From Chloroflexota bacterium (GTDB lineage: Bacteria; Chloroflexota; UBA11872; VXOZ01), in assembly GCA_958295775.1 (NCBI GenBank), contig CATQHC010000009.1:744001-808000 (forward strand): DNA of 64,000 nt, in the 5' to 3' direction. Shown here piece by piece: positions 7,853-56,948 of this stretch (position 1 is its first letter; each line of letters begins with the position of its first letter). The translations under genes were made by a program, and so were the position numbers. The notes under the pieces are model-generated. The model did no database searches. It had not been told where the DNA came from and was given only the letters and a program-made list of their open reading frames with translations.

Positions 7853-8470
7853 ATGCTCATTCCGTACGTCATCGAGACAACGAACCGCGGCGAACGCGGC
7901 ATGGACATTTTCTCACGGCTCCTGCGCGATCGCATCATTTTTCTGGGCACACCGGTTGACGACAACGTGGCAAACATCATCATCGCGCAGATGCTCTTGC
8001 TTTCCAGCGAGGACGGTGACGCCGACATCGGCCTTTACATCAACTCGCCCGGCGGCAGTGTGCATTCAGGCCTGGCAATCTATGATGCTATGCAGTACAT
8101 CAAGAATGACGTGGCGACCTATTGCATGGGCCTCTCGGCGAGCATTGCCGCCCTGCTTCTTGCCGGCGGCGAGTCGGGCAAGCGCTACTCTCTGCCCAAC
8201 TCACGTATGCTCATTCATCAACCGTGGACGCAGTCCTCGCGGCCTTTGCAGGCGTCCGATCTCGAGATCGAGGCGCGTGAAATCCTGCGCACCAAGAACC
8301 AGGTGAACTCGATTATTGCGCAGCACACGGGGCAGGACATTGCCAAGGTCGAACGCGACAGCGAGCGTGACTACTGGATGGATGCCACCGAGGCCAAGGA
8401 GTACGGGCTTATCGATGATGTCTTGCCGTCCACTGTAAAGACACCGCAAACGGATGGGGTGCAGGTCTAG
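7853..8470 (+). CDS. clpP: ATP-dependent Clp protease proteolytic subunit
   Basis: A 205-residue serine peptidase that forms the barrel degraded proteins enter via ClpX or ClpC. The catalytic triad is visible: Ser in G-L-S-A-S-I-A-A, His in M-L-I-H-Q-P and Asp in S-E-R-D-Y-W-M. The oxyanion segment N-S-P-G-G-S-V is intact. A strong GAGGAG ribosome site lies 6-7 bases before the ATG. It is followed 40 bases later by clpX, the usual operon; no trigger factor gene precedes it. Confidence 0.96.
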
Positions 8471-51882: not shown

Positions 51883-52845
51883 TTAACCAAACCGCACTTT
51901 GAACTGCGCCGTGTCCTGGCCCACATGGTTGATGATAGAGCGAGCGTTTTCCACAAGTTCGGGGATGATATAGTCCTTCTCAACCCATATAGTTTCCACT
52001 TGTTCGCGATTGTAGAAGTCTTTGCCTGTCGGATGTTTGTGCTCCTTGTGTACCAAGTACCGTGCGCGACTGTTTGTCTGGGGAATCGGGCAATGGTCAA
52101 TTCTCAGATATTTGCTGTTTACAAGCCATCGAGCAACTTCAACCACTACTCTATTCCAATACTTGATGGGGCGAAGCGAACCGTCCGGGAACTGGATCTC
52201 AACAGGTGAAGGAGTGCGTTGCTTTGGTCTAAGTTCTGACAGAGACTGCCATGCACGGTCGTCTTGAACGGGCGACGCAGGCTCAGGAGCAATCGGATCC
52301 GACTCTGGTGTGTCAGACGGCCTTGCCTCCGGTTGAATGAGTGTTACTTGCCCTGCGGCGGCTCTACCCAATTCCATGCTCGGTCGCCACAATGCAAGTG
52401 CCTGAAGGCAGACCTCGGCCGCTGGCTGCCTGCTCAAGTCGAATTCGACGACACGCTTTTCATCTATGGGTACGGGCCGGTGCGTTTCGTATATCTCCCA
52501 GCTATTGCCATCTGTCAGGGCAAAGTGCTTTGTGCCCTTTTCAAGGCAATACTGTATTCCCTGTGTCAGCGCAGTATCGCGGAGCGAAGAGTCCAGACTC
52601 TTCGCTTCAACCATCATCGCCGGACTGCCATCGCTGCCAAGAAGGGCGTAATCCGCTCGGCCATTACCTGACTTGTACTCTGGAATGACCAGTACTGGAT
52701 CTGTTGTGTCCCAGCCAAGTTCGCGCAGTAGCGGGTCAATCAGGGCGTAGCGGGTTAGCGCTTCGCTCGCTCTGAGCGCGGCGCCATGTAACTCGATACG
52801 CTCTTTGAGCGTTTCGACCAGTGAGTGCAATTCCTCTAAGGGCAT
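51883..52845 (-). CDS. HsdR_N-like nuclease-domain protein
   Basis: A 320-residue protein. The first ~150 residues look like the N-terminal nuclease domain of type I restriction subunits: Y-A-L-I-D-P-L-L-R-E-L-G-W, then G-R-A-D-Y-A-L-L-G-S-D-G-S-P-A-M-M-V-E-A-K, giving the PD-(D/E)XK residues. There is a Pro/Glu-rich linker and an unfamiliar C-terminal domain, but no helicase, so it is not a full HsdR. Not paired with hsdM or hsdS in the window. Confidence 0.65.
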   Translation of the reverse strand: MPLEELHSLVETLKERIELHGAALRASEALTRYALIDPLLRELGWDTTDPVLVIPEYKSGNGRADYALLGSDGSPAMMVEAKSLDSSLRDTALTQGIQYCLEKGTKHFALTDGNSWEIYETHRPVPIDEKRVVEFDLSRQPAAEVCLQALALWRPSMELGRAAAGQVTLIQPEARPSDTPESDPIAPEPASPVQDDRAWQSLSELRPKQRTPSPVEIQFPDGSLRPIKYWNRVVVEVARWLVNSKYLRIDHCPIPQTNSRARYLVHKEHKHPTGKDFYNREQVETIWVEKDYIIPELVENARSIINHVGQDTAQFKVRFG

Positions 52846-53143: not shown

Positions 53144-53716
53144 CTACGCGTCATTCTCCTTCAGGTATTCGATCGCACCGCGCACAATGCCGAAGCGGCC
53201 TTCGCCGACTTTTGCGAGGCGCACGTCGCCCTGGCGGTCGATGAGGTAGAGGGTCGGCCAGGCGCGGTTGCCGAAGGCCCGCCATATTTTGAAGTCGTTA
53301 TCGATGGCGACGGGATACGGCAGGCCGAGCCGCTCGACGGCGTTGCGCACGTTGTCCACCACCTTCTCGTGGCTGAATTCCGGCGTATGAATGCTGATCA
53401 GCGTGAACTTATCGTCCGCATAAGTGTTATGTAAATCCACCAGACCGGGGATATCGTTCAGGCAATTAATTCAGCCATAGGTCCAGAAGGCTAACCCAAC
53501 GGCCGACTTGCCCTGAAAGCCCGCGAGCGTGAGCGGTTCCGAGTTGATCCATGTCGTGTCAATGAGTTCCGGCGCTTTGCCGAGCACCGGAAGGTCCTCA
53601 ACATTCACAGTCCCGGTGCCTGTGCTCTGTTGTCCGACCAAGGTCTGGCCGCACGCGCTCAGCCCCACGGCGGCAGCGCCGGCAGCCATGCCGTAGAGTA
53701 TTCCTCGTCTTTGCAT
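53144..53716 (-). CDS. Probable selenocysteine-containing thioredoxin-fold lipoprotein
   Basis: One continuous frame of 190 residues apart from a TGA at 53471-53473 (residue 82). The N-terminus is a lipoprotein signal (lipobox L-S-A-C near residue 22). The TGA follows F-W-T-Y-G and precedes I-N-C-L-N-D-I-P; cysteine homologues carry F-W-T-Y-x-C-I-N-C here, so the TGA replaces the first redox cysteine, giving a U-I-N-C site. The frame then continues with I-S-I-H-T-P-E-F and W-P-T-L-Y-L-I-D, both thioredoxin-like. A SECIS-like hairpin follows. The alternative is a pseudogene by TGC-to-TGA change, or a sequencing error. Confidence 0.75.
53435..53452 (-). promoter_or_regulatory. SECIS-like hairpin downstream of the in-frame TGA
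   Basis: On the minus strand, AUCC-CC, loop GGUCU, GG-U-GGAU: a six-base-pair stem with one bulged U. The GGUC loop begins 24 bases past the UGA, within the usual bacterial range (about 16-37 bases). The E. coli fdhF element has the same GGUC-type loop and a bulged U, although on the other side of its stem. Made by eye, not computed. Confidence 0.45.
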
Positions 53717-54042: not shown

Positions 54043-56694
54043 CTAGCCCGCCACCACGTTTATCAGGCGACCGGGAACATATTTGACCAGCTTTACGTCC
54101 TTGCCGGCCATGAACTGCTGCACGCGCTCGCTTGCCAGCGCGAGTTCGCGGGCGCCGTCCTCGTCCAGCGAGACGCTGGCCTCGATGGTGTCCCGCACCT
54201 TGCCGTTCACTTGCACCACGAGCGTAAACGTCTCTTCGTGGGTCAATTCCTCAGCGAATTCCGGCCAATCCTGCTGGTGGACGGAGTACTCGCGCCCCCA
54301 GCGCTCCCAGATTTCCTCCGCCAGGTGGGGCGCAGTCGGCGCCAGCACCAGGAGAAATTGCTCCATGGACCGCTTCCAGGTCTCCGTGGCTGCCAATTCC
54401 GGCGTGTAGACCTTGTAGAGCCAGTTTGTGAACTCCATGAAGTAGGCGACCATGGTGTTGAACTTCATCGCGTCGATGTCCTCACCGGCGCGCTTGATGA
54501 CGCGGTTGATCCAGCGTGAAAGTTCAGCCTCGGCCTTGTCTACCGGCATGGGCTCGCTGCCCTGCTCAACGCGTCCCAGCAGCATGTTCCACACCCGCAC
54601 CAACCAGCGGCGCGCGCCGGGAATACCCTCGCTGTTCCAGCTCGTGTTCTGGTCGAAAGGGCCCATGAAGAGTTCATACACACGCAGCGAATCAACGCCG
54701 AACTTATCTACCATTTCATCCGGGCCGATGACGTTGCCGCGACTCTTGGACATTCTGCTCCCGTCCGGGGCCAGGACGACGCCTTGATGCCGCAGCTTCG
54801 CAAACGGCTCGTTGAAGTCGATGAGCATGGCGTCCTTGATGACCTTCGTCCAGAAACGCGCGTAGATCAGATGCATAGTGGCGTGTTCGGCGCCGCCGAC
54901 GTACAGGTCTACCGGCAACCAATGGCGCGCCTTATCGAGGCCGAACGGCAACTCGTCGTTTTGCGGATCGGCAAAACGCAGGAAATACCACGACGAGCAC
55001 GCGAAGGTATCCATGGTATCGGTCTCGCGCTCGGCGGGGCCGCCGCAGTCGGGGCACGTGGTGGCCATAAAAGAGCCCACCTTGGCCAGCGGCGAGCGGC
55101 CGTCGCCGGTTGGTTGAAAGTCTTCAATTTCGGGCAGCAGCACCGGCAGCTTGGGCGTGGGCATCTCGACCCAGCCGCACTTCGGGCACTTGATCATGGG
55201 AATGGGCGCGCCCCAGTAGCGCTGGCGCGAAATCAGCCAGTCGCGCATGCGGAACTGCACCTTGGGACCGCCCAGGTCGCGCTCATTCAGCCACTCCGTG
55301 ATGTTTTCCCCGCCTTCAGCGGACGTTTCGCCAACGAACGTCCCGGAGTTGACCAACGTTCCCTCACCCTCGTAGGCGTCGGAAACGTCCCAATCGACCT
55401 CATAAGGCGGTTGCACGACCACGCGCACGTCCAAGCCGAACTTCTGCGCAAACTCGAAGTCGCGCTGGTCGTGCGCGGGCACGGCCATGATGGCGCCGGT
55501 ACCGTACGTCACCAATACGTAGTCGGCAATCCAGATGGGAATGTGCTCGTCGTTCACCGGATTGATGGCATAGGAACCGGTGAACACGCCGGTCTTCTCG
55601 CGCTCGGCGGACTGACGCTCGGTCTCCTCCGTGCGCGCGGCAGCGGCCACGTAGCGGTCCACGGCCTCTTTCTGCTCCGGCTTGGTGAGCTTGTCTACCA
55701 GTTCGTGCTCCGGCGCCAGCACCATGAAGGTTGCGCCGAACAGCGTGTCCGCCCGCGTGGTAAAGACCCGCAGCTCGTCACCGATTTCCGTCAGAAAGAC
55801 GGCTTCCGTACCCTCACTGCGGCCGATCCAGTTGCGCTGCATCTCTTTGGTGGATTCCGGCCAGTCGATTTTTTCCAGATCATTGAGCAAGCGGTCGGCG
55901 TAGTCCGTAATTTTGAAATACCACTGCTCCAGGCTCTTCTTCTCAACTAAGGAGTCGCAGCGCCAGCAGCGGCCGTCATGCACCTGCTCGTTTGCCAGGA
56001 TAGTCTGGCACGACGGACACCACCACTGTTGGCCCTTGGCCTTATACGCCAAGCCACGGCGGTGGATCAACAGGAAGAGCCACTGCGTGAACCTGTAGTA
56101 TTCCGGCGCACTGGAGTCGATCTCCCGATCCCAGTCGTACGAGCAACCGATGAGGTCGAGTTGGCGTTTGTAGTTGGCGGTGTTCTGGTCAACGGTCAGC
56201 CGGGGCGCAATGCCCGTATCGCGGGCGCGGTTTTCGGCGGGCAAGCCAAAGGCATCCCAGCCCATGGGGTGCAGCACGTTATAGCCGCGCATGCGCATCT
56301 GACGGGAGATTACATCCGTGGGGATATAGTTATGGCAGTGACCGACGGAGAGACCGTCACCTGAGGGATAAGGAAAGAAGTCGAGACAGTAGTAGGTCTT
56401 ACGACTGTCCTCGGTTTCTTCGGTCTTGTAGAGTTTCGTCTCGCGCCAGCGCGCCTGCCAATCTTGCTCGAATTCCTGCGGCTGGTAGTCGAGCGAGACC
56501 TGCTTCTCTTCCTCTGGGGCGACAGCCGCTGCGGCCTCTGCTTCAGCGACGTCTACCGCAGCCTCGGTTGCAGCGGCTTCCGCTGGCGCATCCGCAGGTG
56601 TCTCTACGTCACTTGTCGTTTCTTGCTCCGCAGCTTCCGACCTTGTCGCAGCCTCCGACCTTGTCGCAGCCGTCGGCTCCTCCGCTTGGCTCAT
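54043..56694 (-). CDS. leuS: Leucyl-tRNA synthetase with acidic N-terminal extension
   Basis: Class I aminoacyl-tRNA synthetase of about 883 residues. Signatures: the HIGH-like segment (here L-S-V-G-H-C-H-N-Y) and K-M-S-K-S-like R-M-S-K-S-R-G, with zinc-binding C-P-S-C and C-P-K-C and an editing domain. Before the catalytic core there is an extra ~70 residues rich in Ala and Glu, with A-A-T-R-S-E tandem repeats; it may be disordered. ATG 56694 (M-S-Q-A-E-E-P) is preferred to the TTG at 56718. Confidence 0.95.
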   Translation of the reverse strand: MSQAEEPTAATRSEAATRSEAAEQETTSDVETPADAPAEAAATEAAVDVAEAEAAAAVAPEEEKQVSLDYQPQEFEQDWQARWRETKLYKTEETEDSRKTYYCLDFFPYPSGDGLSVGHCHNYIPTDVISRQMRMRGYNVLHPMGWDAFGLPAENRARDTGIAPRLTVDQNTANYKRQLDLIGCSYDWDREIDSSAPEYYRFTQWLFLLIHRRGLAYKAKGQQWWCPSCQTILANEQVHDGRCWRCDSLVEKKSLEQWYFKITDYADRLLNDLEKIDWPESTKEMQRNWIGRSEGTEAVFLTEIGDELRVFTTRADTLFGATFMVLAPEHELVDKLTKPEQKEAVDRYVAAAARTEETERQSAEREKTGVFTGSYAINPVNDEHIPIWIADYVLVTYGTGAIMAVPAHDQRDFEFAQKFGLDVRVVVQPPYEVDWDVSDAYEGEGTLVNSGTFVGETSAEGGENITEWLNERDLGGPKVQFRMRDWLISRQRYWGAPIPMIKCPKCGWVEMPTPKLPVLLPEIEDFQPTGDGRSPLAKVGSFMATTCPDCGGPAERETDTMDTFACSSWYFLRFADPQNDELPFGLDKARHWLPVDLYVGGAEHATMHLIYARFWTKVIKDAMLIDFNEPFAKLRHQGVVLAPDGSRMSKSRGNVIGPDEMVDKFGVDSLRVYELFMGPFDQNTSWNSEGIPGARRWLVRVWNMLLGRVEQGSEPMPVDKAEAELSRWINRVIKRAGEDIDAMKFNTMVAYFMEFTNWLYKVYTPELAATETWKRSMEQFLLVLAPTAPHLAEEIWERWGREYSVHQQDWPEFAEELTHEETFTLVVQVNGKVRDTIEASVSLDEDGARELALASERVQQFMAGKDVKLVKYVPGRLINVVAG

Positions 56695-56948
56695 ATTCTC
56701 CAACGCCTCCGCGTGCAATGTATGTCAAAAGGTGTAGTTTGCTGCTTGATACACCCCATTGTAGCACAGCGAGAGGCGCTCTCCCGCTGTGCTTTGGAGG
56801 CTTTGCGCGGTAGGGCCATCCGGCCGGTCGGATGCAACACCGACATGGAATCGGATGCGATGGCAGCGCATGGTGAAGACCATTAAGAAAAGCTGGTACC
56901 CTACTATCAAACTAAGAGAGATCAGCCGGCAGCAAGGAGCGGAGTAAC

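Follow-up and report, generated by a model that had tools for sequence, protein, structure and literature searches.

The gene at 53144..53716 (minus strand) of the window, the whole 64,000-nt stretch analysed here, very probably encodes a genuine selenoprotein, a predicted thioredoxin-like lipoprotein with UGA at the position of its redox cysteine. This reading, deduced from sequence, is supported by the conservation of the TGA, by selenocysteine (Sec) genes in the same genome, by a SECIS-like hairpin and by purifying selection. The frame starts with an ATG at 53716 and ends at 53144; it consists of 190 codons and a TAG stop, with one TGA (53473..53471, codon 82 of 190) to be read through. Translation with table 11 divides the gene into an upstream ORF of 81 codons and a downstream ORF of 98 codons. 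Read as Sec, the TGA yields a protein of 190 residues, MQRRGILYGMAAGAAAVGLSACG...FWTYGUINCLNDIP.... The predicted Sec82 (53471..53473, minus strand) occupies the first Cys position of a C-x-x-C motif, and Cys85 (53462..53464, minus strand), invariant in the alignment, is the resolving cysteine of U-x-x-C. An earlier note on this DNA had proposed both the single TGA within a 190-residue frame and the motif FWTYG-U-INC. Both are borne out, with the TGA exactly at the first Cys of the homologues' CxxC; the strand, which that note did not give, is the minus strand.

In a homologue survey covering 150 relatives, every one of the five congeners carried the gene (82-89% protein identity) with one TGA each, and the TGA is located at the identical codon in six of six genomes, all separately assembled. 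Pairwise dN/dS ratios among the congeners range between 0.08 and 0.19 before the TGA and between 0.01 and 0.10 after it; conservation is therefore stronger behind the supposed stop than before it. A nonsense mutation that turned the gene into a pseudogene, or a Cys codon misread in sequencing, would involve one base only (TGC or TGT to TGA) and would concur with a downstream half that lacks its own start of known function. Both are extremely improbable in view of the same TGA in six assemblies from different species, the low dN/dS downstream and, among the matches listed, 117 intact frames with the same TGA from many phyla. Close relatives were also checked for further disabling changes, and a second lesion was found in none of the five congeners. 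That the TGA is no product of chance, as the earlier note had argued, is thus indicated by its identical codon in the congeners, by purifying selection on both halves and by the recurrence of the pattern in the frames of the family. In the aligned distant homologues, exactly position 82 is occupied by Cys or TGA and by no third residue, and the TGA form occurs in 32 sampled genomes of the phylum outside the genus.

The genome assembly containing the window (3.42 Mb, 95% complete) encodes the Sec machinery that the earlier note had proposed to look for. Profile matches were obtained for selA (570.9 bits, cut-off 267.9), selB (359.2 bits, cut-off 242) and selD (376.8 bits, cut-off 125), and the tRNA-Sec (67.1 bits, gathering score 47) was annotated by ARAGORN as tRNA-SeC with the anticodon TCA. 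The selD gene (G000:C9:447099-448028, locus L013) carries one in-frame TGA of its own, and hence this SelD is probably itself a selenoprotein. Among the sampled genomes, selA was present in 37 of 38 with the TGA form versus 90 of the remaining 113 (Fisher p 0.009, which is only indicative because the genomes compared are related); the sole TGA-form genome in which selA was not found, G026, is 77% complete. Changes of the genetic code at TGA occur in bacteria, and codon 82 might accordingly be read as another amino acid, e.g. Trp or Gly, under a reassigned code. Such decoding has next to no probability here: in the window, 23 of the 56 open frames with 250 codons or more terminate in TGA, so that no simple reassignment of the code applies, TGG encodes the conserved Trp next to the motif, the Sec machinery is complete, and the TGA stands for Cys in homologues, not for Trp or Gly. 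With Sec as the preferred reading, the UGA at codon 82 would be decoded by the genome's own SelA, SelB, SelD and tRNA-Sec. At ten other sites in the window, a TGA lies within a CxxC-like motif and is flanked on either side by 60 open codons. These TGA codons, among them 42234 (+), 54517 (+) and 59135 (-), have CxxC- or UxxS/T-like contexts and open flanks; they look like chance occurrences, and at least 54517 lies antisense to the leucyl-tRNA synthetase gene.

A bacterial SECIS hairpin was predicted at 53435..53452 (minus strand), where it would direct Sec insertion immediately downstream of the UGA. Counted from the first TGA base, its 18 nt lie 21-38 nt downstream; they form a 6-bp stem with a bulged U and the loop GGUCU with a G-U (AUCCCC-GGUCU-GG(U)GGAU), the loop lying 24 nt after the UGA. 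Its distance, loop and stem all fall within the SECIS limits applied (loop 16-37 nt from the UGA and starting with G followed by G or U, stem of 4-16 bp). The six codons of the hairpin are nucleotide-identical in all six congeners and form the only invariant six-codon run in the 150 positions tested; only one third of the codons overall are invariant among the six. Hairpins with a perfect stem of at least 4 bp and a loop starting with G-[GU] occur in 155 of 160 TGA forms versus 1 of 25 Cys forms. The SECIS-like hairpin is thus specific to the TGA forms, and further backs the selenoprotein reading. The window hairpin was calculated at -4.9 kcal/mol, and two congeners have longer stems with -7.3 and -8.6 kcal/mol. 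At this energy it fails the threshold of -7.5 kcal/mol of the published bSECIS consensus model (PMC13188914). According to the same review, a subset of real SECIS elements does not conform to the consensus model (PMC13188914), and hence we consider the threshold a property of the model and not a defining feature. Synonymous shuffles gave p 0.08 for the window hairpin and 0.02-0.3 for single genes; as these single-gene values are modest, the case for a SECIS element would be carried by the whole gene set together with the conservation. A plain fold of the 60 nt after the TGA did not show the window hairpin, since competing long-range pairs win; it was brought out by a search for local hairpins combined with the conservation test. 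Two paralogues with the motif U-PVC, described below, have the same hairpin with a different sequence (AUCCCCAGUUUGGUGGAU), and in relatives of the NHL type a stem of 7 bp encloses AGUU and shows paired changes, one and the same pair being C-G, U-A or yet another combination. One Cys homologue (L033) and its Sec relative L054 have the stem AUUCCUUC/GAAGGAAU in common, with the loop CUU in the former and GUU in the latter; L033 thus carries a possible fossil SECIS, as if Cys had recently taken the place of Sec.

A 98-codon ORF starting with GTG follows the TGA, and two separate products could be envisaged, with the TGA as a true stop and re-initiation at GTG 53440. This arrangement is very unlikely: the thioredoxin fold, which is one unit, would be cut within its active-site helix, Cys85 would fall outside the second product, and there would be no reason for the SECIS-like hairpin and the conservation of the TGA.

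The full-length selenoprotein is predicted to be exported and lipid-anchored. Its sequence starts with a lipoprotein signal peptide (53651..53716, minus strand) containing a twin arginine (MQRRGILYGMAAGAAAVGLSA-C22) and the lipobox LSAC, which inspection showed to occupy residues 19-22 in every one of the six congeners. The Tat signal model TIGR01409 stayed below its cut-off of 16.7 bits for the window gene (12.4 bits) and narrowly missed it in congeners (15.7 and 15.0 bits). Residues 41-187 (53156..53596, minus strand) form a DipZ-like thioredoxin-fold domain (PDB: 2hyx, 5cyy). The Pfam families AhpC-TSA (1.4e-11) and Thioredoxin_8 (2.9e-9) matched the protein, as did the Redoxin model, and the closest sequences of solved structure were DipZ from Mycobacterium tuberculosis (2hyx/5cyy, 9e-32), plant SOQ1 and human NHLRC2. 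An AlphaFold2 model reached a mean pLDDT of 82.9, with values above 90 for 139 residues and low values only in residues 1-36. The fold search with this model placed DipZ first (E 1.6e-15, TMq 0.74), followed by NHLRC2. In the model, a helix (residues 83-99) directly follows the U-x-x-C motif. Pro154 (53255..53257, minus strand; AWPT), which we take from knowledge of the thioredoxin fold to be the cis-proline, belongs to the pair W153-P154, invariant in the alignment. Two characteristics of the thioredoxin family are thus combined in the protein: W153-P154 and a CxxC-type motif (U82/C85) where helix 1 begins. The lipobox, the DipZ-like fold and the linkage of paralogues to CcdA agree with the earlier proposal of a lipoprotein acting as a U-x-x-C oxidoreductase.

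The upstream neighbour of the gene encodes a leucyl-tRNA synthetase (54043..56718, minus strand) and provides context only. The leucyl-tRNA synthetase side is conserved among the congeners, at 90-95% identity in L217-L220. On the other side, the congener stretches retrieved contained no homologue of the neighbouring gene (51883-52845). Given both observations, the window gene is probably transcribed alone. Thioredoxin-like proteins receive electrons from CcdA, which transports them across the membrane. CcdA genes exist in the genome, and the window gene itself adjoins none. Directly behind one of them (PF02683; L222 6275-7027, plus strand; G000:C2 about 1052780-1055150), two more Sec lipoprotein genes with the motif FWTYT-U-PVC are arranged convergently (L222 7249-7917, plus strand, and a minus-strand frame ending near 8192). 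This pair is conserved in four congeners with a SECIS-like hairpin in each gene, and together with the window gene it forms one all-Sec clade with 98% local support.

A role of the Sec lipoprotein as a CcdA-fed reductase is probable, though held with less confidence than its identity as a selenoprotein. The product would be an exported, lipid-anchored thioredoxin-fold protein of a DipZ/TlpA-like clade with the active site Sec-Ile-Asn-Cys, serving as a thiol/disulfide reductant on the outside of the membrane. Sec82 and Cys85 would receive electrons through the membrane via CcdA, and the selenolate of Sec82 would attack disulfides or oxidised thiols of client proteins. Sec insertion, export and lipidation, CcdA as the electron donor, the reductive direction and the clients are all elements that we infer. 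Evidence to the contrary comes from human NHLRC2, a close relative of the NHL type, whose domain did not reduce insulin (PMC6107167). The selenoprotein might instead act as an oxidant, a peroxidase or a selenium- or metal-handling protein. The matches to the AhpC-TSA and Redoxin models, the position of the window gene away from CcdA, the absence of MsrA/B and of a substrate described for the clade in the literature found would suit such a function. Still, it is an unlikely alternative, if one of some weight, as the motif is of the CxxC type (U-x-x-C) and not of the peroxidase TxxU/C type, the closest structures are those of DipZ, NHLRC2, ResA and Etrx2 and not of peroxiredoxins, and the paralogues adjoin CcdA. 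For the favoured CcdA-fed reductase, cytochrome c and Cu-site maturation are candidate clients; the genome encodes a Sco protein as well as proteins for cytochrome c assembly, with no specific link to the window gene.

An experimentally described counterpart is the CcdA-Etrx system, in which surface thioredoxin lipoproteins with Cys are fed by CcdA (PMC3914529). Etrx1 and Etrx2 are likewise lipid-anchored, thioredoxin-like and CcdA-fed (PMC3914529), and Etrx2 is a fold match of the window protein. The Etrx proteins have Cys and serve MsrAB as client (PMC3914529), whereas the window protein has Sec. A search of the genome for MsrA and MsrB found neither, which gives no support to Msr as a client of the kind known from Etrx.

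In DipZ, a thioredoxin domain is fused to a CcdA-like membrane domain. The C-terminal domain of M. tuberculosis DipZ (2hyx, 5cyy) belongs to the same clade as the window protein, with 37% identity over the structural alignment and the common active-site context FW-x-Y-x-C-I-N-C, in which DipZ has Cys and the window protein Sec. DipZ possesses a C-terminal module; in contrast, the window protein is a free-standing, single-domain lipoprotein of 190 residues without this module. Human NHLRC2 (6gc1) has a homologous thioredoxin domain in which the second Cys of CCINC aligns with the Sec of the window protein. It carries Cys in man and an NHL propeller after the thioredoxin domain, whereas the window protein lacks NHL repeats. 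Many bacterial relatives of the NHL type have Sec at that Cys position of NHLRC2.

The distribution of the Sec form was examined with the exact DNA pattern TTYTGGACNTWYNNNTGAATHAAYTGY, corresponding to FWT[YF]x-Sec-INC, in one genome per species of 84,980 species. At least 118 genome stretches matched, compared to about one match expected by chance according to our own estimate from base-composition arithmetic. All but one of the matches listed (117 frames) continue as intact frames of the same family, the frames at L164 and L205 being cut by the end of the locus. The exception is L142 (5507-5533), whose frame stops at a second TGA after 13 codons and which is perhaps a decayed copy or an assembly error. 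Among the matches listed, the Sec is followed by fewer than 150 codons in 42 cases and by more in 76. One long form that was checked, L162, contains NHL repeats (PF01436, 1.2e-24) and thus has the architecture of NHLRC2. Loci within L097-L214 (e.g. L106, L144 and L162) from several phyla are NHLRC2-like, with FWT[YF]C-U-INC and long C-terminal regions. Two further Sec forms, L195 and L197, have roughly 150-180 extra C-terminal residues after the thioredoxin domain, recalling the C-terminal structures of DipZ. A separate ResA/TlpA-like protein at L085 (G050:C187) has the motif FWSTT-U-APC, and its TGA is followed by a strong hairpin (GCUGCCGGUCCUGGCAGC). By record title, the matches listed span about ten phyla, drawn from metagenome bins in which single cases may be misbinned. 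Chloroflexota account for 56 of those in the tree; the other groups are Rokubacteria/Methylomirabilota, Actinomycetota, Gemmatimonadota, Acidobacteriota, Armatimonadota, Planctomycetota, Myxococcota, Binatota and single others. At least nine changes between Sec and Cys were counted along the tree, which is small and poorly resolved. On balance, we lean towards the DipZ/NHLRC2-like clade representing a large, so far unnamed selenoprotein family with Sec at the position of the second Cys of the NHLRC2 CCINC motif in many phyla and with repeated Sec/Cys switches.

None of the NCBIfam Sec models reached its cut-off for the window protein or for its Sec relatives tested. The family NF041057 (Rcas_1661) also comprises a thioredoxin-like (seleno)lipoprotein and is a different family; it did not match the window protein and gave 13.9 bits for one UPVC paralogue (cut-off 190). 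Its name points to Roseiflexus, another genus of the Chloroflexota. Selenoproteins with UxxC have been catalogued as Prx-like thiol:disulfide oxidoreductase, Thiol-disulfide isomerase-like and Redoxin family proteins (PMC13188914, PMC9312934), and Trx-like 1 and Prx-like 1/3 are catalogued UxxC thioredoxin/redoxin selenoproteins as well (PMC2398784). They share with the window protein the Sec in UxxC, a thioredoxin-superfamily domain and the same Pfam families, and some marine members of the clade may be contained in 'Trx-like 1' or 'Prx-like 1/3'. The catalogues, however, use broad domain names only and name neither a DipZ/NHLRC2-like clade nor an NHL fusion nor the motif FWTYxUINC; none of the 119 prokaryotic selenoprotein families of the 2026 catalogue is named for DipZ, NHL or NHLRC2. 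A literature search for NHL, DipZ or NHLRC2 with selenocysteine retrieved no relevant paper from the collection searched. As to the suggestion of the earlier note that the subfamily may be undescribed, UxxC thioredoxin-like selenoproteins are known as a kind, whereas the unusually wide DipZ/NHLRC2-like clade is unnamed in the catalogues consulted.

With this analysis, a gene halved by annotation is recovered as a predicted selenoprotein, along with many relatives in uncultured Chloroflexota, Rokubacteria/Methylomirabilota, Actinomycetota, Gemmatimonadota and others. Sec at one precise residue points biochemists to the atom that does the chemistry in the DipZ/NHLRC2 clade. This position is useful because human NHLRC2 is essential and linked to a fatal disease, and its thioredoxin domain proved inactive in the standard insulin test (PMC6107167). 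If the Sec reading is true across the clade, it would mark this residue as a catalytic nucleophile of the DipZ/NHLRC2-like family.
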